Below, in pieces: positions 1-29,497 of a DNA stretch of 29,685 nucleotides; positions within the stretch are counted from its first letter, which is position 1; each line of letters begins with the position of its first letter. This DNA comes from a virus. The notes beneath the pieces were generated by a model. It was not told the DNA's origin, did not search any database, and saw only the letters and a list, made by a program, of their open reading frames with translations. A program made the position numbers and the translations under genes. Where the stretch lies: positions 1-29,685 of IMG/VR virus record IMGVR_UViG_3300046387_000245. One strand, written 5' to 3'.

Positions 1-670
1 TGGCCTTTGATTTTTCAGTTTCAGCGGCGGCGGCGGCTTGTTCTGCTTCCTTTACCTTTTGTGCGGCGGCGGCGGCACGACTGGCAAGCTGGCCGATAGC
101 AACGGCGGCGGCATCCAATGCCTTAACCGCTTCGCTTTCCGTCACGCCCACGCCGATATGCTTGTGCAAAAGGGCAATTTCAGATTGCAGGTTTTCCCGT
201 GCCGTTTGAAGCTTGGTTTTTGGCGTGGCCTTTTTCCGCGCGGCCTTGGCATTGTCCAGCGCGGCGCGGGCTTGCGTCATGCTGGTGTATTCGTGCGCGG
301 CCTTAGTAACATGCTTTTTCTCGACCGAATTTGCTGGCAATCCTGCGACCTTTTCAATCTGCCCCAAATAACTGAAATAAGCTTTCAAGGCTGGGCTTGC
401 TTCCTTCATGCTTCCCGCTGGTTGCTTGTGCGTTTCCGCCTTGCCGTCAACGGTAGACTTGTAGGTGAAGCCAAGGCGGCTTGCCAAGGCGTTATAAAAT
501 TCGTCAACCGATATCGGGCTTTCTCCATACATTGCCCCAAAAGCTTTAAGCAATTCGTCGCCTTTGCTTTTGATTGTCGCATTGCCTTGCTTTTCAGCGG
601 TAAGCAATGCGTCGGCAATGTTGACTGCTTCAAGCAGGGCGGCGGTGTCTTGTGTGTTTTTAATGGTCAT
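1..670 (-). CDS. Ala/Lys-rich unknown protein, partial (runs off left edge)
   Basis: An open frame runs without a stop from ATG at 670 to the window edge, about 223 codons, beginning MTIKNTQDTAALLEAVN. The start has GGAG 9 nt upstream (683-680) and a strong sigma70-type promoter 56-84 nt upstream of the ATG. The first ~115 residues look globular. The rest is rich in Ala, Lys, Glu and Gln with long alanine runs, which suggests a helical or coiled-coil region. I recognise no family. It is much richer in G+C (GCC, GGC, GCG codons) than the genes to its right, which suggests a different origin or strong composition bias. It lies downstream of the terminase block, where the early region would begin if the genome were circularised, so an early host-directed or accessory role is possible but unproven. 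The open plus-strand frame here is a shadow. Confidence 0.75.
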   Translation of the reverse strand, partial: MTIKNTQDTAALLEAVNIADALLTAEKQGNATIKSKGDELLKAFGAMYGESPISVDEFYNALASRLGFTYKSTVDGKAETHKQPAGSMKEASPALKAYFSYLGQIEKVAGLPANSVEKKHVTKAAHEYTSMTQARAALDNAKAARKKATPKTKLQTARENLQSEIALLHKHIGVGVTESEAVKALDAAAVAIGQLASRAAAAAQKVKEAEQAAAAAETEKSKA

Positions 671-809: not shown

Positions 810-824
810 CGTTACAGTGTAACG
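810..824. repeat. Boundary palindrome CGTTAC-AGT-GTAACG, copy 1
   Basis: Perfect dyad; with the A.T inside the centre the arms extend to 7 bp around a single base. On the plus strand it is flanked by AAAAC on the left and AT on the right. It is the promoter-proximal member of a tandem pair, 26 bp from copy 2. Read as minus-strand RNA it forms a short hairpin followed by GGTTTT, so it could also act as a weak terminator of late transcription. Confidence 0.9.
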
Positions 825-835
825 ATAGCCAAAAC

Positions 836-850
836 CGTTACAGTGTAACG
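836..850. repeat. Boundary palindrome CGTTAC-AGT-GTAACG, copy 2
   Basis: Identical to the copy at 810-824 and in the same orientation (AAAAC left flank, ATT right flank on the plus strand). Centre-to-centre spacing is 26 bp, about two and a half helical turns. Both lie between the terminase block and the early promoter. Confidence 0.9.
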
Positions 851-3047: not shown

Positions 3048-3243
3048 AAGGCATCTCTTCTAGGAGTTGGACTAGGGTACTGTTGTTTGTCGGGATAGCT
3101 TCGATACCGTTGTCCTTGAGGAACTTTGCGGCGACACTCAGGTCTGCGGCTTTCGCTTCGCCAGACTTGATTTTAAACAGCAGGTCACTTGCGACTGCCT
3201 CGTGTAGCTCGTTGAGTATTTCAGATACTTTCTTATCAGCCAT
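3016..3243 (-). CDS. terS: Small terminase subunit (T7 gp18-like)
   Basis: The DNA-recognition subunit of the packaging terminase. From ATG at 3243 it gives 75 residues, MADKKVSEILNELHEAVASD..., with the helical pattern NELHEAVA..L...IKSGEA.AADL.VA..FLKDNGI that I associate with gp18 of T7-like phages (89 aa), and an acidic C-terminus. The frame stays open upstream to 3336, but that would overlap the HNH gene by about 100 bp. The 3243 start overlaps it by only 8 bp. It overlaps the large terminase gene at its other end. Confidence 0.85.
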   Translation of the reverse strand: MADKKVSEILNELHEAVASDLLFKIKSGEAKAADLSVAAKFLKDNGIEAIPTNNSTLVQLLEEMPFDEDDLIQTN

Positions 3244-3475
3244 AGCTTCTAGGTTTCCTTGCTCTGTTAGCACTTCTGGGTTTGACGGAGAGGTTTGCAG
3301 GGTCGTTGTTTCTTGCGTTGAAATCACGATGGTCAACGTCCTTGTTGTCGCCCTTGGCTACTCGTCCTTGTTTTACCATATATCGTCTAGCCGCGTTGCG
3401 CCCTGCCCTGCGTTTCTTCTGTTCTGGACGGGCGTGAAACTGACGATACTCTGATTTGTAATCTCTGTTTGACAT
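3236..3475 (-). CDS. HNH-family small nuclease-like protein
   Basis: A 79-residue, strongly basic protein. Residues 46-70 (DVDHRDFNARNNDPANLSV, then the polar S..N) resemble the D-H...N...NL core of HNH endonucleases. It lies directly upstream of the terminase pair, as HNH proteins do in many tailed phages, where they assist terminase cutting (family knowledge, not shown here). The start at 3475 uses AAGG 8 nt upstream, and this AAGG lies in the centre of the boundary palindrome at 3479-3493. At this size it is a minimal HNH domain, and activity is uncertain. Confidence 0.75.
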   Translation of the reverse strand: MSNRDYKSEYRQFHARPEQKKRRAGRNAARRYMVKQGRVAKGDNKDVDHRDFNARNNDPANLSVKPRSANRARKPRSYG

Positions 3476-3478
3476 AAT

Positions 3479-3493
3479 CGTTACCTTGTAACG
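3479..3493. repeat. Boundary palindrome, AAG-centre variant over the HNH start
   Basis: Perfect 6-bp arms; on the minus strand the centre reads AAG. The AAGG formed by centre plus arm is the only good Shine-Dalgarno for the ATG at 3475, so in mRNA the ribosome site is partly folded into a hairpin. It is part of a 27-bp block (3473-3499) identical to 29470-29496 before the DNA polymerase gene. It separates the HNH/terminase unit from the lysis genes. Confidence 0.9.
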
Positions 3494-3496
3494 GTT

Positions 3497-3856
3497 TTAT
3501 TTGCGGAGCTTGGAGACACTACGAACACCAAAAGCCGCACCCACGGCGGCAAGCCATGCCGCGATGTACCACTCAGGAACGCTCTCATCTAACGCAATAA
3601 ATCCTGCTTTGACCCTTACGGCCCATTCGTCACCAAGAAAGACCAAGACCATCGGCACAGCCAAGAGAACCCCGTAGAACTCATCAAGCCACCCGTTGTT
3701 GGCGTTGGATGCCCATTGGTTCTCCCAGTTGACTTCGCCAGCCGCTACTTTCTTGGCAATCTCGCCTTTAGCTTTCTGCTCGTCTGCTTTGCGTTCCATG
3801 TAGCTTCCTGCCACATTGCCAACCAGACCAATCGCGTTTGATAAAAGGCTCATCAT
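3497..3856 (-). CDS. Holin-like protein (GTA holin 3TM type)
   Basis: A 119-residue protein. The basic amphipathic N-terminus ends in KADEQKAKGEIAKK, followed by the WENQWASNANNGWLDE block and two clear membrane segments at about 62-75 (YGVLLAVPMVLVFLG) and 96-111 (YIAAWLAAVGAAFGV). The WE...W.DE block before membrane helices is typical of the holin family first described from gene-transfer-agent release (PF11351, from memory). It would make inner-membrane lesions at lysis. Start is ATG at 3856 (a second ATG is at 3853), sharing an ATGA overlap with the preceding holin-like gene, so both are probably translated together. Confidence 0.7.
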   Translation of the reverse strand: MMSLLSNAIGLVGNVAGSYMERKADEQKAKGEIAKKVAAGEVNWENQWASNANNGWLDEFYGVLLAVPMVLVFLGDEWAVRVKAGFIALDESVPEWYIAAWLAAVGAAFGVRSVSKLRK

Positions 3857-6048: not shown

Positions 6049-8665
6049 TTTTCAACTCCTCCAATTCAACGCGCATTTCTTTGATTTGCGTTTGTTGCTC
6101 TTTAATTGCCTCAATTAAAATCGGCACGAGCTTGTCATAGGCCACAGTTTTATAAGGGTCGCCATCAGGGGATGTGTGTGCGCTACCATGAACTGCCTCT
6201 GGAGCCACGGCCTCGACCTCATGTGCCAAAACCCCAAAATCGTAGGTATTTGGTCTGCCTACAATTTCAGGCATGTCCTTCCACTTAAATCGGACACCAT
6301 TAAGTTTTTGCACCTTCTCAAGGCTGTTTGTCAGGGGTGAGACTTCCTCTTTCAGACGCTCATCGGAGTATGCTGTCACATTACCCGCCGCGACCATATC
6401 TCCGGTAGGCATGTGGACATACCATCTCCATGACGTTGCCGACCAACCGCCAACGCCGAGATACGCATCGGCGCGTAGGTGGAAGTTCGTGGCATAATGA
6501 CCAGCGCAATGAAGCGATAAACTTGCAAGGTTGCTATCGCCCGTACCCCCATCATTCTGTAGTTCAAGCGTCCCAAGGCCACTTGTCGAGTGGTCGCCAC
6601 GCGCTCTAAAAGAACCAGCATGATTGCCTTCGGGAGTTATGAACCTGCTTACACCGCTTTGCTGAACTGTGAGCTGGGCTGTAGTAATGTCGTTGGCATC
6701 GCTTCGCAAAAACTGAGTGCTATCCAAGCCGTCAAGCGTAGCCGCGTTGCCACCATCGGCTGACGTAATAAACCCGCTGTCATTTGTTAGGTCTGAAACA
6801 TTGGATGGGATGGTGGGTGTGCCAGTTAACGAACTATAAGCTCCATCAAAAGACGATGTGCCTGCACCAATCGCTGTCCGAACTTCTGCGCCAGTAATTC
6901 CTGTAGCTAACGCTGGTGTACCAGAGTTGTCCTCAATCGCTGGAGCGGCAGGAATTGTAGGTTTGTTTGAAAGGTCGTTATAGTTACCACTAAAGGTGGT
7001 TATCTGATTCCACTGTGTGCCGTTATAGAACTTGAGTACACTGGCAGTTGTATTGAAGAACAAATCGCCAGCATCATTGGATGACGATGGGTCGGACGAA
7101 CCAACACGATAACGGTCAGCAAAGCTGTTAACCCCTGTGACATTACTTGCAACAGTGGATACGTTAGAAGAAATGCCAGCCACTGTATTAATGTTTGTTG
7201 AGTCTCCAGCTACAGAGTTGATGTTTGCACTGTTAGCCGCAACAGCATTGATGTTGGCACTGTTGGTTGCCACTGAGTTGACATTGGCTATAGCCCCAGC
7301 GACTGTTCCGATATCAGTAGCATCCCCTGCCACTGTGGTTACATCAGAGCTTATATTAGCGACTGCTCCAACATTGGTTACGTTGGCGGCTACGGTATTG
7401 ATATTGGTTACCGCGCCAGCAACAGCGGTGATATTAGAAGCGTTGTTTGCCACGTTGGTGATGTTAGTAGAGTTACTAGCCGCGCTTGTTACGTCAGAGC
7501 TAATGCCAGCTACTGTGGACACGTTGGCACTAATGCCGTTGACAGTAGTGATTGCGCCAATGTTACCGCCTACATCCTGAATATCAGAGATGTTAGAAGC
7601 GACAGTGCTTATGTTATTGGTCGGGCTAATCTGTCCAGCGACATTGTTTATGTTGGCGGTGTTACTTCCAACGCTTGATACTGCGCTGGATATCCCTGAC
7701 ACGTTTCCGATTTCTGTAGATATACCAGCGACAGTGCCGATATTGTTTGTCGGTGATATCTGACCAGCAACCGTGTTCACATTTGTAATAGCACCACCAG
7801 TAGAATTCACGTTGTTGATGTTTGTGCCAACTGTGTTGATGTTAGCGACAGCCCCTGCCACCGTGTCGATTTCTGATGTCTGTTCATTCAGGTCGTTGGC
7901 GACAGTTTCAATTTCTGACACTGTTTCTTGTAAGTCAGAAGCCACCGTTTGAACTGCGGCAATATCTGTGGCAACGGCGGCAATGTTCGAGGAAGCGTTT
8001 GCAACCGTGGTGACGTTAGCGGCAATACCTGCGACAGTCGAAATGTCGGCGTTGTTACCTGCAACTGTGTTTATGTTGGCGTTGTTACCCGCCACCGTGT
8101 TGATGTTTGTGGCATTACCTGCAACAGAGTTGACGTTAGCGATTGCACCCGCAACCGTGTTGATGCTCGCAATGTTAGTTCCCGTTGTATCAATGTTTGT
8201 AATGTTAGCGGGAGTAAGGTAGGTGGTCGTTAGCCAGTTCTTCGTTACTGCATCCTGTGCATCTACAGGGTCTGCCAAGTTCACAATACGTCTTGCGGTA
8301 CTGCTTTTTGTAGCATCAAACTGGTTAGCACTATTCAGAGACAAAGCCCTGTCTGCGGTATCCACAGCTTCCTGAGAAATAAAGAACAACTGGTTGGCGT
8401 TCTTATCAAGGTCAGCCTCTGACAAGATAGCCCCGTCACTGAAGTCAACTAGGCGACTTGCCTTGGGTGTATCCCGTTCAATCAGAATAGATGTTTGAGA
8501 TGCAGGAGCAGAGTTGAACGTGAGGGTTTGTCCATTAACGCTGAAAGCTGTTGTCGCCGTTCCGTTGAGGAACGCTTTGACATCTGCCGTAGCAAGGTAG
8601 TTAAACGTAATGGTGTAGGCTGTGGTTGAGCCATCACCTGTGTATTCAATAAATGAGTTTGCCAT
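6032..8665 (-). CDS. Tail fibre protein with T7 gp17 N-terminus and S74 chaperone
   Basis: An 877-residue host-recognition fibre. Residues 1-150 (MANSFIEYTGDGSTTAYTI..., LSEADLDKNANQLFF) match the tail-binding N-terminal domain of T7 gp17. Residues ~155-513 are a long array of ~10-residue repeats of the NINTVAG type. About 515-560 is a DPSSSNDAGDLFFNT...LKFYNGTQW module, followed by Gly/Pro-containing segments. The end is an S74 intramolecular chaperone: YSDERLK with the predicted catalytic Ser near 767, then VLAHEVEAVAPEAV and a C-terminal coiled coil. Members of this family trimerise the fibre and then cut themselves off. AGGT with an AATAATAA spacer precedes the ATG. The gene is much longer than T7 gp17 (553 aa), mainly because of the repeats. 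Confidence 0.92.
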   Translation of the reverse strand: MANSFIEYTGDGSTTAYTITFNYLATADVKAFLNGTATTAFSVNGQTLTFNSAPASQTSILIERDTPKASRLVDFSDGAILSEADLDKNANQLFFISQEAVDTADRALSLNSANQFDATKSSTARRIVNLADPVDAQDAVTKNWLTTTYLTPANITNIDTTGTNIASINTVAGAIANVNSVAGNATNINTVAGNNANINTVAGNNADISTVAGIAANVTTVANASSNIAAVATDIAAVQTVASDLQETVSEIETVANDLNEQTSEIDTVAGAVANINTVGTNINNVNSTGGAITNVNTVAGQISPTNNIGTVAGISTEIGNVSGISSAVSSVGSNTANINNVAGQISPTNNISTVASNISDIQDVGGNIGAITTVNGISANVSTVAGISSDVTSAASNSTNITNVANNASNITAVAGAVTNINTVAANVTNVGAVANISSDVTTVAGDATDIGTVAGAIANVNSVATNSANINAVAANSANINSVAGDSTNINTVAGISSNVSTVASNVTGVNSFADRYRVGSSDPSSSNDAGDLFFNTTASVLKFYNGTQWNQITTFSGNYNDLSNKPTIPAAPAIEDNSGTPALATGITGAEVRTAIGAGTSSFDGAYSSLTGTPTIPSNVSDLTNDSGFITSADGGNAATLDGLDSTQFLRSDANDITTAQLTVQQSGVSRFITPEGNHAGSFRARGDHSTSGLGTLELQNDGGTGDSNLASLSLHCAGHYATNFHLRADAYLGVGGWSATSWRWYVHMPTGDMVAAGNVTAYSDERLKEEVSPLTNSLEKVQKLNGVRFKWKDMPEIVGRPNTYDFGVLAHEVEAVAPEAVHGSAHTSPDGDPYKTVAYDKLVPILIEAIKEQQTQIKEMRVELEELKNGSAK
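7125..8220 (-). repeat. Coding repeat array in the tail fibre shaft
   Basis: About 1.1 kb of degenerate ~30-bp units encoding roughly ten residues each, with the core (N)I/V-N/S/T-T/S-VA-G/A and variable linkers, for example NINTVAGNNA and ISSDVTTVAG. At DNA level the units share gttgatgttggc-like strings on the plus strand. A ten-residue beta-type repeat fits a long fibrous shaft. Similar units could recombine and change shaft length. Confidence 0.85.
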
Positions 8666-8673
8666 TTTTATTA

Positions 8674-11600
8674 TTACCTATTACTAGCTAAAAGGTCAGT
8701 CCCTTTCGTCATTCGTTTATGCGTCATTACCGCATCTCTAAGTTCTGGATATTTTCTCATTAGTTCTTCTCTAGCCGCCTTTTTATATGCGCCCATTATT
8801 CGAGACACAGACCTAAGTTCGACAGTCGGTACTTGCCCATTTGTGCGATACCTTTTGCGCTCTGCTGGTACGCCTTGCCAAATAGGGCTGGCAAAATACT
8901 CTGAGAGAGTTTGCTCAAGGGTCTTGCCATTTATCTGTAGTTGACCCGTAAGACGGGCGTAATCTGAGAACTGCTCACTTGTTAGTTCTTGTTTCGAGAG
9001 CCTCTTTTCAGGGCCACTAAATCCATACCCAATCTCACGCAGTTCTTTCATAACGCTGGTGTTGTGTACTTCTTGGCTTTGGAAACCCAAGGTGTTTGCA
9101 ATCACTGGAGATTCGATAGGCTTACCTGTAACCCAGTTGTACTTCTTTGGAAGACTGTCTTTGAGTATTGGTATTTTCTTTTTCAGTTTATCTGCAAGAC
9201 CAATGGCTTCGACTAAGGCATCATGCCCTTGAGCAACATCTGTTGTTTGTACCAAAGCCGCTGGGATAAAGGATGCCACAAAGTTGCTTGCGGTGTTCCC
9301 TACTCTGCTAAGAGCCTTTTCGTCTTCAGCGGACAATAGCGTTAGCAGGTTTGACACACCCTGAAAGTAAGCCTTGTTCTTAAATGTTTGAGTAATACCC
9401 AAAACTAACGCTGTGGCTACTTCATCCACTTGGTCAAGTGTGTCAGCATCAGCGTCCTCTAAGACTGGGGACATAGCTTCATAAGCAGTGGCGATAGCAC
9501 CAACCATAATGAAGTTAGGGTCAAGGCGATTGTAGCTGTAGTACTTATCGCCAAGTTTGATGCTATATGGTTGCCAGCCAGCGTTACGAAGGAAGCGTCT
9601 AGCTCTAGGGTCTGTTGGGCCTGCACCTGTAATCTTGCCTTCACCAAAAGCAAAGAACATAGAACTCATAACAACAGCACCCATTGACTGTCGGCCTAAT
9701 GCCTCTGCACGGCGTACACCACCTGCTTTTATATCTTCCCTGACACTTTTTGAAAGCATCGCCAGTAGGGGCGTTCTTTGTCCTGCACGTTTCAAAAGGT
9801 TCGTAGGAGTACGAATAAAGGGCAAAACAAGTTGCATCGCTGGGTATCTAACTGCAAGACGCTGGAGGTCACCAAAGAAGTTGTTGCCTAAGTCTTCAGT
9901 AAACGTAATCCGCTGTGAGTACTCAAGAGCTTCCGTATCGACACCACGGCCTGCGCTATCGAAGGATTCATCCATGCGTTTGGCTACATAAGCATCTAAG
10001 TCCTCTACGCCTGTTTCCAATCCTTCACGGGTAGCTTTAGCTTTCATAAATGAGCGATAGTTCATTTGTTTCAAGAACTCATCGGAACTACCTAGCGCAC
10101 GGAGAGACAATCGGGAGCTTTTACCGATAAAGTCCACAAACCGTCCCATAACGCTATCTTGCTCTACGCCCAAGTATTGAGAGCTTATTCGGTGCTGTGT
10201 GTTCTCTGTAGTTGTTCTCAGCGGGTCAAGAATGTTTTTCTCTTCTTTGAACGAAGCTACAGCGTAAGAAAGAGCATCGTTTGTTGCGTGTTTCAATCCA
10301 ACAAGTTGCTCCCGTGCATCTGCACGAACCGCCGCACCGTCTGCCCCTCTGACAAACATCGAACCCATTATTCTTTCTGTAGGAACAAGGAATGTTTCCA
10401 CAACACCACTTAAAGCGTTGGTTACTTGCGTCTTGTAGTTAAACAAAATCATTGAGCGGAAAAACTCACCCAACGGCCCTGCAATACGTTTGTTGCTTGA
10501 AAGACGAGCAAGCTTTGCTACTGAAGCCACATCTTGCGAGTTACGAATGGCTATACGAAGCTTGTCGGGATTTTCCATAGTTGCTCGTGCGGCTCTTCCT
10601 GACATGTCAAATACACCGCCAGTCAACTCGTCATATGACTTAATACCCATTTGTCGTGACTTTAGCGCACGGCCCATTTCTGTGCGGATGCCTGTTGCAC
10701 CTTGGATAAGACGCTCAAGCTTCTCAAACTCCACAAGCAGTGACATACGAGCCGTATCGTCAAATGCTTCATCAGCAACATTGGCTAAGTTAAGAAGGTC
10801 ATCGTACTGCTTCCTAATCATGGCATCTGTAGCCGCTAGGAACGTATAAGAGTCACGAGTGTTGTCCGCGTGTTTTGCAAGTAGCGAAGCAACCTCATCG
10901 GTTGACAGGTCTGCCGTCTGAGCTAACTGTGCCGCCGCACGTTGAGAAAGCTCATCAAAGGTTTCTGTACGCTTCACAGTTTTCTGTGCGTCTTGGGTCA
11001 AGTCCATAACTTGCCGCCCAACGCTCGAATAGAATACATCCATATCTTCGTATAGGGAGATATGTTCAGCCTGTCCTTGTGACCGCCTTGTTTGAAGAAT
11101 GTTGTACATGAAGCTGTCTACACTCTCTTGTAGTTCATCAAACGATTTCTCATCGCCCTCCGCAGTACGCAGGGCTTTCACTACTTCATCAGCTTTCTTC
11201 TTAGTTATCTTGGGGGTTTTGGGTAACGCGGCATCTACAGTTTCAGGACTATCTTTCTTCGGAGTGTCGCTTTTGGTCTTAGCTGTGGGTGTTTCTTGAA
11301 CTTCGGCTTTGGTGGCAATTCCAGCTTCCGAAACGTCTTCGGTGGCCTCTTTGGTAGCATCTTTCGTGCCCTTTCCAGTAGCTCGTTTAACAGTCTCCTC
11401 TGCTTCGGCTTTTGCGGCTGGGCCTGCCTCTTCTAGCTGTTTGCCTGCCTCTTTTAATTCTGCTTCAGCGGCTTCATCAGCTTTCCCTGTATCGCGCCAA
11501 GTTTTCCAACCCTTTGCAGTAGCTTTACCCCCAAGCACTAAAGCCCCAGTTATTGCACCGTTTGCAATTACATCCTCCAAAGCCATTTTCATACGAAGCT

Positions 11601-13962: not shown

Positions 13963-13977
13963 CGTTACAATGTAACG
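13963..13977. repeat. Boundary palindrome CGTTAC-AAT-GTAACG
   Basis: Perfect dyad in the 32-bp gap between the stop of the gp14-like gene (13979) and the start of the gp15-like gene (13946). The minus-strand flanks match the consensus (AACC before, ATT after). It splits the internal virion protein set, so it may set different expression of gp15/gp16/fibre relative to the upstream genes. Confidence 0.9.
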
Positions 13978-14536: not shown

Positions 14537-14999
14537 TATTATTAATCCTTACAAATTCGTAGAACGGTTTTTTACCGACACCAAATTCCTCAATTTTGTT
14601 AATGAACATAAATCCCAAAGACTTGAGCCAGCGTATTGCTACGCGATTATCTTCTGACACCCAGTTGTTTAGAATGGGTGTTTCTTCTTGCATACGGTCA
14701 ACCCATTCCTGCGCTTGCGGGATGAACTGCCGTGCAAAACCTTTTTCGTAAATACCATCGGACATCAGAAGCCAAGGGAAACCATTGGTATCTGTAGCCT
14801 TTGCGACACCAAACATACCGATAATGTCCTCTTTGTCGCTGATGATAGTGTTGCACTCGTAAGAAGCCCAATACGAATACGCTAATGATTGGTAACCGTT
14901 AGAGCCGCTGGACGCTTGAACTTCTCTCAAGTCAACCTCGCGTAGTCGTGGGGCAAGGACTTTGCAATCCTCGTAAACTGAAGGTCTATAGTATGCCAT
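14529..14999 (-). CDS. GNAT-like gp13 homologue
   Basis: A 156-residue protein starting at ATG 14999 in a TAATG junction with the tail tube B stop, with AGG 6 nt upstream. An open extension to 15059 would overlap tail tube B and lacks support. The C-terminal EDNRVAIRWLKSLGFMF pattern and the preceding MFGVAKA...PWLLMSDG are typical of GNAT acetyltransferase folds, as in T7 gp13 (138 aa), a protein needed for virion assembly and placed between gp12 and gp14. Whether it acetylates anything is unknown. It may be a structural relic of the fold. Confidence 0.8.
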   Translation of the reverse strand: MAYYRPSVYEDCKVLAPRLREVDLREVQASSGSNGYQSLAYSYWASYECNTIISDKEDIIGMFGVAKATDTNGFPWLLMSDGIYEKGFARQFIPQAQEWVDRMQEETPILNNWVSEDNRVAIRWLKSLGFMFINKIEEFGVGKKPFYEFVRINNNV

Positions 15000-19643: not shown

Positions 19644-19680
19644 AAAAAAAGGGGGACACCCTCAAAGAGAGCATCCCCCT
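19644..19680 (-). terminator. Intrinsic terminator after the major capsid gene
   Basis: Minus-strand RNA folds as GGGGGA...UCCCCC with an inner helix that continues through G-U and C-G pairs to about 13 bp around a UUU loop, followed directly by seven U (19650-19644). It lies 36 bp past the capsid stop, as T7 Tphi follows gene 10. Partial termination here would give more capsid mRNA than downstream tail mRNA. An additional small hairpin (GAATGG/CCATTC, 19691-19708) and a degenerate boundary palindrome abut it. Confidence 0.88.
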
Positions 19681-19691
19681 ACACTGTAACG
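19677..19691. repeat. Degenerate boundary palindrome fused to the terminator
   Basis: CCCTAC-ACT-GTAACG on the plus strand matches 13 of 15 positions of the boundary palindrome. The left arm is altered where it runs into the C-rich terminator stem. It keeps the right arm and centre exactly. Confidence 0.6.
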
Positions 19692-20825: not shown

Positions 20826-21020
20826 TTTTATCACCTCATATGATATTCTAGTGTTGATGTAGGTTTCGTTACATTGTAACGATTAAGTGTTCCTGCATTC
20901 ACTACTCACTTCACCAAGGATTGTCCCGCGCACGGGGTCAAAGGTTCTGCTTTGGCTTCAGACAAGTTGCGGCAGGGGGCAAGAAGCCCCCCACCGACTG
21001 ACACTTGAAATGGAGACAGC
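20826..21020 (-). promoter_or_regulatory. Capsid leader region with GC hairpin and palindrome
   Basis: A 195-bp gap between scaffold and capsid genes, long for this compact genome. On the minus strand it holds a stable hairpin GGGGGC-UUCUU-GCCCCC (about 20992-20975) without a following U run, a small CCCG/CGGG hairpin near 20930, a boundary palindrome (20867-20881) and a strong ribosome site. The hairpin could protect a processed 5' end of capsid mRNA. No convincing sigma70 promoter was found, so the capsid promoter, if any, is unlike the host consensus. Confidence 0.55.
20867..20881. repeat. Boundary palindrome CGTTAC-ATT-GTAACG before capsid
   Basis: Perfect dyad 41 bp upstream of the capsid ATG, inside the leader. 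On the plus strand the right flank ATT fits the consensus, while the left flank (TTT instead of AAC) does not. Downstream on the minus strand a TAGAAT hexamer lies 17 bp from the palindrome's edge, so the palindrome would overlap the -35 of any promoter using it. Confidence 0.9.
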
Positions 21021-24212: not shown

Positions 24213-24239
24213 GATGTTTTTCCGATAATGTCCAAAAAC

Positions 24240-24254
24240 CGTTACACTGTAACG
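24240..24254. repeat. Boundary palindrome overlapping the RNR stop codon
   Basis: CGTTAC-ACT-GTAACG. The minus-strand arms encode the last three residues of the ribonucleotide reductase and its TAA. Minus-strand RNA then reads GGTTTTT, giving an 8-bp hairpin plus U run, the best terminator-like version of the repeat. It lies between DNA metabolism and the virion block. Confidence 0.9.
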
Positions 24255-27297: not shown

Positions 27298-27737
27298 GTG
27301 TCAGTTTCCTCAGTGGATAGGTCAGCGTACAGTTTGACCGTATCCGTACTAAACAGCTTCGACAGGTTCACGAGGAACATGCGGGACGCATTATGGTCAC
27401 CGCCGTTAACCACGCGATGGTGGTCTAGCTGTTCAACTATTTTCTTCAGGTTATCAACGCTGAACACCAAGGTGCAAAAAACGTCATCACCCAAAGCAAG
27501 ATTATGAAACCAATAGTCGGCTTCGGTTGCTTTGATACCACTGGGCTTTCCCCAGCTTTGAAACTCGATGCAGATGTTTCCAGTTTTTGACCACTGGTCA
27601 CGCTCTGTTTTGACCTCGATTTTTTTGTTCTGAAGCATGTCCGCAATGCGGTCTTCATGAAGGTGTCCGTAAGCAAGGTCTAAATCAAATTTCTTTCGGT
27701 CTTTCTTAGTGGGTTTCAGCCCAGTTTTTTCCGACAT
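27294..27737 (-). CDS. Endonuclease, PD-(D/E)xK-like (T7 gp3 position)
   Basis: A 147-residue protein from ATG 27737 (GGAGAG just upstream). The open frame extends to 27803, but that start would overlap the polymerase gene by 98 bp rather than 32. KIEVKTERDQWSKTGNICIEFQSWGKPSGI carries the E-V-K core (acidic residue, then ExK) plus a G...E helix upstream (GHLHEDRIAD), typical of PD-(D/E)xK nucleases. The place between polymerase and exonuclease is that of the T7 gene 3 Holliday-junction endonuclease, and a junction-resolving or host-DNA-cutting role is inferred. Confidence 0.78.
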   Translation of the reverse strand: MSEKTGLKPTKKDRKKFDLDLAYGHLHEDRIADMLQNKKIEVKTERDQWSKTGNICIEFQSWGKPSGIKATEADYWFHNLALGDDVFCTLVFSVDNLKKIVEQLDHHRVVNGGDHNASRMFLVNLSKLFSTDTVKLYADLSTEETDT

Positions 27738-29472
27738 TATACTCTCCATCAAGTCGTAGTCGGAAGTTGTAGGCTTCTCCCGCGTCCTTGATGGCTTCCA
27801 CACACAAAGCTCCTACGCGCTCTGTGATGCTCTTTTTGGCTATAATCTGAAGCTCATCATGAACAAATGCCGCTTGGTAATAGTCCTCTCCAAGCACAAA
27901 GCCTTCAGCCTGCATCTTGCGATGGAACTCAACGAGCCACCGCTTGCAGATGATTGCACCCGTGCTTTGAAGAAGCGTATTCAAGCTTGCGTGTTTATGT
28001 CGGACAGGCACTTTTCGCCCATCCAACACTTTTAGGTAGCCCCTGTTTTCTGCCGCCTTGCTTACGTTGTCACGAAGCTTGGCAAGCGCAGGGGTCTTTT
28101 TTAGGAACTGGGCTTTGAGCCTTCGTCCCGCTTTAGCATCTTTACCAACGATACTGCCGATTTTTTCATCACCTCCACCGTAGAGAAACCCGTAGATGAA
28201 AGTCTTTGCAGTCGCTCGTGAAGGTAAGCCAGCGGCTTCCATGTTGGTTGTATGTATGTCTCCCGTAAGTATCTCATCGGCATACGCTCCCCCATCGTAT
28301 AGAGCCATATAATGAGCCAGAGCGCGTAGCTCCAGACCGCTAACATCACAGCCGATAATACGATAGCCATCAGGAGCGATAAAAAGACTCCGACAAGCAC
28401 TACCGTAAGTAGCCCCTGTAGAAGGTATTTGACCAGTGTTGGGATTTGAATGCGTACAACGTGACGTATGCGTTCCCATGTGATTAACGCGCCCATGTAT
28501 TCGTCCTTTCTTAACGAGCTTGAGCCAAGCTTGCTTACCTTCCCCAAGCTGTCCCAGTCGTTTCTGGAGCATCAGGTATTCAGATAGAAGTTTTGCCTCT
28601 GGGTACTCCAAGGCAGAGAGAACAGTCTCGTCCACCTTTGCAAGCCCTGTCTCAGTGAACTCATCAGGTTGCCAGTCGTATCGCTCTCGAAGCGCACGGG
28701 CTATGTGTTCACGGGAACAGGGGTTGAAAACAGTTTCTTTGACTTTGATGAAAGGCTCACCCTTCACATAGCCAAGTTTCTTATTGTTGACCTTGGGTAT
28801 GAACTCTGTCTCTTCACGCCACGGCAGAAAGACTTCCTGTAGTTCAGCCTCAATCTCTGTGCGGCGGTTAGACAACTCGCCATAGAGCTTCCAGCCAGCC
28901 TGCTCATCAAAGGGAAACCCAAGGTACTCCTGCACCAGCAGATGGTGATGCACCTCATGCTCTAACTTGATGGCATCCTCGCTGTACTTCTTGCTCTCAA
29001 TCTTCAAGAACAGGTGTTTGTTTACCACGACATCTTGGCGGCAGTACTCAAGCATCTGCTCAGTGAAAACATCAAAGTCTTCTTGCTCACCAAACTCGCC
29101 CTTCAATTCGCCAAGGCGGTAGCCCCATGCCTTGAGGCTATGTGAGCCAATCATCTTCGGTGGCAGTTTGCCTGCATGATAGAGCGTGAAGTCCTTGTTC
29201 TTAACGTCAGACCAAATGAGGCGGCACATCACTAACGTGTCACGCACCTCGCCTTCATAGTCGAAGTCAAAAATGTTTTTGAGGGCAGGTAAATCGTAGC
29301 CCATAATGTTATGCCCAATCAGGCAGTCAGCCTGTGCAAGGAGTTCAAGCCCTGCCTCAAGCTGGTCAGGACGGAACACATACTCTTCGTCTGTGTCCAC
29401 ATCCCGTGCGACAATGCAGTGTACAATGTCGGGTGTGAGGCTATTCGCCTCTATGTCAAATATCAGTCTCAT
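27706..29472 (-). CDS. Family A DNA polymerase (T7 gp5-like)
   Basis: A 588-residue replicative polymerase. Proofreading residues: D6/E8 (FDIEAN), D60 (GYDLPAL) and D147 (YCRQDVVV). Polymerase motif A D376 (GCDVSGLELR), motif B (AKTFIYGFLYGGGDEKI, with Y427) and motif C H538-D539-E540 (FVHDELQ). It is about 115 residues shorter than T7 gp5 (704). Between the thumb region (LQEVFLPW, ~211-218) and VFNPCSREHI (~248-257) only ~30 residues remain where T7 has ~70-80 including the thioredoxin-binding loop, so processivity is probably thioredoxin-independent. The ATG at 29472 takes its AAGG from the boundary palindrome. Confidence 0.96.
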   Translation of the reverse strand: MRLIFDIEANSLTPDIVHCIVARDVDTDEEYVFRPDQLEAGLELLAQADCLIGHNIMGYDLPALKNIFDFDYEGEVRDTLVMCRLIWSDVKNKDFTLYHAGKLPPKMIGSHSLKAWGYRLGELKGEFGEQEDFDVFTEQMLEYCRQDVVVNKHLFLKIESKKYSEDAIKLEHEVHHHLLVQEYLGFPFDEQAGWKLYGELSNRRTEIEAELQEVFLPWREETEFIPKVNNKKLGYVKGEPFIKVKETVFNPCSREHIARALRERYDWQPDEFTETGLAKVDETVLSALEYPEAKLLSEYLMLQKRLGQLGEGKQAWLKLVKKGRIHGRVNHMGTHTSRCTHSNPNTGQIPSTGATYGSACRSLFIAPDGYRIIGCDVSGLELRALAHYMALYDGGAYADEILTGDIHTTNMEAAGLPSRATAKTFIYGFLYGGGDEKIGSIVGKDAKAGRRLKAQFLKKTPALAKLRDNVSKAAENRGYLKVLDGRKVPVRHKHASLNTLLQSTGAIICKRWLVEFHRKMQAEGFVLGEDYYQAAFVHDELQIIAKKSITERVGALCVEAIKDAGEAYNFRLRLDGEYNVGKNWAETH

Positions 29473-29475
29473 AAT

Positions 29476-29490
29476 CGTTACCTTGTAACG
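29476..29490. repeat. Boundary palindrome, AAG-centre variant over the polymerase start
   Basis: Perfect arms, minus-strand centre AAG. Forms the only clear Shine-Dalgarno (AAGG, 8 nt before ATG) of the DNA polymerase gene. The 27-bp block 29470-29496 is identical to 3473-3499. A further partial copy GTTACAGTGT lies at 29497-29506 across the stop of the preceding gene. Confidence 0.9.
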
Positions 29491-29497
29491 GTTTTAG

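Follow-up and report, generated by a model that had tools for sequence, protein, structure and literature searches.

A 27-bp block before two unrelated genes

In the window (the entire 29,685-nucleotide stretch of viral DNA analyzed here), the same 27 bp lead into the start codons of an HNH endonuclease gene and of a DNA polymerase gene some 26 kb away, which raises the question of how two such distant gene starts come to be identical. An earlier note, made from the letters alone, had reported this identity, ATG included, and sequence comparison bears it out: both copies, at 27 of 27 bp, read TAAAACCGTTACAAGGTAACGATTATG on the minus strand. The features concerned are as follows.

3473..3499, minus strand: 27-bp block, comprising the upstream gene's stop codon TAA, a putative operator and the HNH gene ATG
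29470..29496, minus strand: 27-bp block, ending with the DNA polymerase gene ATG
3236..3475, minus strand: HNH endonuclease gene, 79 aa, adjoining the terminase genes (Pfam HNH_3, E 2e-6)
27706..29472, minus strand: DNA polymerase gene, 588 aa

At the HNH gene the block spans exactly from the upstream stop codon to the start codon, while at the polymerase gene the upstream stop lies 4 nt further out; beyond the block, the flanks of the two copies are unrelated. At both genes an AAGG Shine-Dalgarno lies within the centre of a dyad, 8 nt before the ATG. Among 2.9 million viral contigs, the exact 22-bp core is limited to eight stretches, all of them before the HNH or polymerase gene of this phage species group.

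The source is an uncultured T7-like marine phage. The window is a fragment of a T7-like podovirus genome encoding terminase, internal virion proteins, capsid, portal, ribonucleotide reductase (RNR), exonuclease and polymerase, and near-identical contigs extend it leftward with genes for primase, lysozyme, ssb, a single-subunit RNA polymerase and an integrase. No close DNA match to the window was found among phage isolates. An 877-aa gene in the tail region carries 30-bp periodic repeats at window positions 7150-8200, encoding a 10-residue protein repeat.

Seven copies of one dyad in the window

The two blocks contain members of a larger family. Seven perfect CGTTACNNNGTAACG dyads (CGTTAC-NNN-GTAACG) are found in the window, compared with none expected from 100 shuffles, along with one degenerate copy:

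810..824, no strand assigned: operator palindrome, tandem copy, upstream of the first gene
836..850, no strand assigned: operator palindrome, tandem copy, upstream of the first gene
3479..3493, no strand assigned: operator palindrome, CGTTACAAGGTAACG in minus-strand reading, 3 nt ahead of the HNH start and with the AAGG Shine-Dalgarno at the centre
13963..13977, no strand assigned: operator palindrome just before a gp15-like gene
19677..19691, no strand assigned: degenerate operator CGTTACAGTGTAGGG with two mismatches, following the capsid gene; types E and F (below) have an intact operator at this place
20867..20881, no strand assigned: operator palindrome about 30 nt before the major capsid gene (site start 47 nt from the gene start)
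24240..24254, no strand assigned: operator palindrome overlapping the RNR stop codon, 3 bp from a phage-promoter-like motif
29476..29490, no strand assigned: operator palindrome, identical to the copy at 3479, 3 nt before the DNA polymerase start; CGTAACAATGTAACG in sister strains

When the 14 sites of this spelling (type A; the window plus contig L186) are aligned in orientation, they give AACCGTTACANTGTAACGATT, with near-invariant arms and a free central base. The AAG centre is confined, as the earlier note had stated, to the copies before the HNH and polymerase genes. The HNH copy is kept in five sister-strain contigs.

Family membership alone does not account for an exact 27-bp match, as only 5e-4 pairs with such identity beyond the family consensus would be expected among the 14 sites. 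This improbability is what favors a recent local copy, by gene conversion or as a mobile start module, over shared constraint. Nonetheless, the identity stops at functional borders with unrelated sequence outside, both copies are older than the split of several strains, and the letters shared beyond the consensus are mostly the Shine-Dalgarno AGG and the ATG (the HNH block also starts with the upstream stop codon). Recent copying seems a possible but rather doubtful origin; the exact identity may stem from it or from the joint demands of operator, Shine-Dalgarno and start codon. Copying would in any case concern only how the identity arose, and is compatible with a role of both copies as operators.

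Type-specific spelling at equivalent places in related phages

A de novo search for repeated palindromes in related phages distinguished eight types, including A, with seven half-site spellings: CGTTACA (A), TGTCTCA (B), TGTCGCA (C), GTTTACA (D and G), GTTAACC (E), GTTAACT (F) and CCCGAAC (H). Relatives carry 6-16 palindromes each, and almost every site is perfect or one mismatch off. Half-sites are usually separated by one base, by two in type E and by one or two in type C. Both spacings occur within one type C genome (G011; contig L102, positions 12028, 15314, 16095, 17662 and 18553), as would be seen with a dimer that is flexible on DNA. At the left ends of five contigs retrieved for another purpose (L106, L108, L111, L117 and L137), two to three palindromes of the respective type are found in each.

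The palindromes recur at the same places: upstream of the first gene, in the RNA polymerase-ssb gap, at the RNR stop codon, around the capsid gene, before gp15 and at the DNA polymerase gene. Within the last of these the exact position varies, with intragenic sites near codon 74 in types E, F and G, and near codon 208 in types B and C. Codon-level alignment shows that types E, F and G each have their own spelling at the same polymerase codons. Moreover, in the same frame, type B has TGTCTCATTGAGACA (CLIET) where type C has TGTCGCATTGCGACA (CRIAT), a difference of two amino acids in an otherwise closely similar protein. Polymerase residues thus change in step with the operator spelling, which is the strongest evidence for selection on the DNA sequence itself.

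Own spellings at equivalent places, and a coherent respelling within the polymerase gene despite amino acid changes, argue that the palindromes are sequence-specific DNA operators, and that both 27-bp copies belong to a genome-wide set, here of type A (AAYCGTTACANTGTAACGRTT). We put the probability of this reading at about 0.8. The earlier note's view of the block as an operator is thereby supported, and extended to dispersed, genome-specific palindromes at the DNA level.

Several further features of the relatives were observed. One contig (L003, 1955-3650) keeps the integrase, without the MarR-like gene and without the operator before the RNA polymerase gene that its sister strains have. A type E relative (L220, TTAACC palindromes) comes from a 33-kb contig that was binned with a Rhodobiaceae MAG, which hints at either an alphaproteobacterial host or a co-binned virus. 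Genome G015 has a terminal redundancy of ~1 kb, with three operators at both ends (L200 42-330 and L202 3784-4070).

RNA folding and phage promoters

The earlier note had further proposed a translation switch, in which a hairpin in the leader mRNA partly hides the Shine-Dalgarno of the polymerase and HNH genes and couples their synthesis. The location of AAGG within the dyad is as such a switch would have it, and an isolated 36-mer is predicted to form a 6-bp hairpin (-5.1 kcal/mol). However, the full leader RNAs show no excess stability over shuffles (z -0.78 and -0.09), AAGG is present in only two of the seven sites, and sites of other types can fall inside genes. The innermost CA-N-TG is also conserved, which a 3-nt hairpin loop does not need but half-sites on double-stranded DNA do. 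In sister strains from two samples, moreover, the polymerase site (CGTAACAATGTAACG) lacks AAGG and its left arm is broken, while in the same two samples the HNH operator and ATG are unchanged on contigs that are not physically linked to those with the altered site. Independent divergence of this kind had been named in advance as speaking against the switch, which we regard as very improbable. Nor do the relatives bear out the proposal that the block ties replication to the synthesis of a packaging nuclease: no palindrome was found directly at the HNH gene in any type other than A, and offsets at the polymerase gene differ, the ATG lying 3 nt after the end of the type A palindrome and 38-41 nt after the start of the type H site.

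Promoters for the phage's own T7-like RNA polymerase would offer another explanation for the palindromes, which are the strongest dispersed repeat and lie near places where T7-like promoters might be expected. A separate promoter-like motif, TGGACAYTATMG, was found instead on the sense strand (83 sense versus 27 antisense matches), is common to several types and resembles the T7 core CACTATAG. In several types it is located after terminase, around the RNA polymerase gene, in the RNR-portal gap, before gp14 and in gp16. The example nearest to an operator in the window is:

24223..24236, minus strand: phage RNA polymerase promoter-like motif TTTGGACATTATCG, beside the operator at 24240

Further minus-strand candidates resembling TGGACAYTATMG are at 14819-14832, 10125-10138 and 1335-1348; all four have counterparts at similar places in related phages. 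The palindromes themselves have asymmetric flanks in both orientations and are followed by no common start region. Moreover, the RNA polymerases of types B and C are 98.8% identical and share the same specificity loop, yet their palindromes differ. Given the separate motif, and a polymerase loop that stays unchanged while the palindrome changes, we rejected the palindromes as phage promoters, a reading that retains only a slight probability. Some operators lie 2-57 bp from TGGACAYTATMG, while many promoter-like motifs have no operator nearby, which counts against the operator reading. Scans for sigma-70 promoters at the left end gave nothing above chance.

If the palindromes are operators, a dimeric, probably phage-encoded protein would bind them as double-stranded DNA, in the early region at the left end and at the borders of the main gene blocks. 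Once bound, it may halt or modulate both the initiation and the elongation of transcription by the host and phage RNA polymerases, in the manner of stoperators. With its own spelling in each phage lineage, the operator set would also define a regulatory, immunity-like specificity. At the HNH and polymerase genes the space ahead of the start codon is taken up by the operator, so that the Shine-Dalgarno would have been placed in the operator's centre, with the loss of one innermost base of the dyad.

Candidate readers of the palindromes

The best candidate for the protein that reads the operators is encoded by the first gene, which is cut at the window edge:

2..670, minus strand: first-gene protein, candidate DNA-binding reader; full length 241 aa in contig L225 (from 5814)

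This fast-evolving protein consists of a helical N-domain and a Lys/Ala-rich tail, and is encoded in every palindrome-bearing type, with two to three tandem operators upstream in most of them. At the sensitivity of the profile it is absent from the other genomes at hand, including the similarly distant G020 and G022. Three contigs outside the set from which the profile was built (L106, L117 and L137) match it and also carry palindromes. A segment after a predicted beta hairpin is relatively conserved among types whose operators are alike: type A has KE.S.ALK.Y.SYL, types B and C have TP..LR..RSAI, types D and G have IP..IKQ, and types E and F have WPKG.LSTYR. This pattern suggests that the segment may be a recognition helix. 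On these grounds we tentatively assign the role of reader to the first-gene protein, at close to even odds.

Database comparisons place the protein in no familiar group. The protein was not found in phage isolates, and three family members had no match among 50,697 phage records. PHROGs gave weak matches without a known function, and the sequence matches in PDB were not significant. The confident model of the N-domain (pLDDT 86.6), compared with known DNA-binding folds such as the winged helix, has SSV1 F-93 as its best Foldseek match (E 0.14) and VIA Z-scores below 5; no convincing family appeared in the VIA and Foldseek lists, where absence excludes nothing. Between two type A strains with the same operator the first-gene protein is 37% identical, a divergence that also fits an arms-race gene. 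The palindromes and the first gene may also be two marks of one clade.

A MarR-like winged-helix protein encoded beside the integrase was considered as well, as regulation by such a protein has been proposed for temperate T7-like phages, LUZ100 among them (PMC10134795). Its gene adjoins that of the integrase in types A, D, E, F and G, and types D and G share both the operator and a near-identical recognition helix (ASASRHC). However, the gene is absent from types B, C and H, for which the early region is covered, and from G003, all with intact operators, and it is carried by LUZ100, HTVC019P, Pasto and CRP-125, which are without such palindromes. In addition, the helices of types E, F and A are similar while their operators differ. 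The MarR-like protein is thus an unlikely reader, and as a universal one we rejected it on its distribution. Types B, C and H lack the integrase as well as the MarR-like gene; hence, a link of the palindromes to lysogeny is not general.

Two other proteins were rejected as readers. The HNH protein, as a reader or cutter of the palindromes, is encoded by every type, yet also by phages such as G020 in which no palindromes were detected, and its C- and D-type versions are alike while the operators differ. A small helix-turn-helix-like protein is encoded beside an operator in types B, C, E and F (e.g., L094 3650-4006 and L102 18494-18850), with the operator within the 5' end of its gene in types B and C, but it was not found in A, D, G, H or G014.

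Relation to known systems and implications

In Cluster A mycobacteriophages (L5, Bxb1 and TipsytheTRex), repressor sites are scattered over promoters and the short spaces between genes, and their motifs differ from lineage to lineage (PMC9283540, PMC6550527). In anatomy, this stoperator/operator network is the nearest known kind. Shared features are many near-identical short sites dispersed over one genome (seven in the window), near promoters and in short gaps between genes, and a lineage-specific spelling that has changed together at all sites. Cluster A stoperators, however, are 13 bp long, asymmetric, monomer-bound and oriented with transcription, whereas the sites described here are 14-16-bp dyads with flanks in both orientations, often lie inside genes and belong to T7-like podoviruses, with a reader that is only a candidate. 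In the Cluster A system the sites are bound by the phage's immunity repressor, which halts elongation; a candidate reader and a putative repression would correspond to it here. As the asymmetry and orientation of Cluster A sites are not found here, we do not claim membership.

Within the same phage family as the window, LUZ100 (PMC10134795), HTVC019P and Pasto have the MarR-integrase-RNA polymerase gene order common to types A, D, E, F and G. These three phages are without dispersed palindromes, whereas several palindrome-bearing types are without MarR and integrase.

The tandem palindromes upstream of the first early gene in most types recall another arrangement. Lambda-type phages have tandem dyad operators at early promoters; here, in contrast, the same dyad is also scattered genome-wide, including inside structural and replication genes. 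Our literature searches found no description of such palindromes.

Taken as a whole, a stoperator-like network of 6-16 palindromic operators per genome, read by a new DNA-binding family encoded by the first gene, with a specificity that has switched repeatedly and all sites rewritten each time, including those in the polymerase gene, is a proposal that we offer at somewhat less than even odds.

Textbooks present T7-like phages as the example of control through a self-made RNA polymerase and its promoters. Dyad operators spread over the whole genome, with a spelling specific to each lineage, would form a second layer and bring repressor-like or immunity-like control to such phages. The related phages would also supply, as a natural series, at least seven operator specificities in which a regulator and a dozen dispersed sites change together, and the first-gene protein a testable candidate for a new DNA-binding family.
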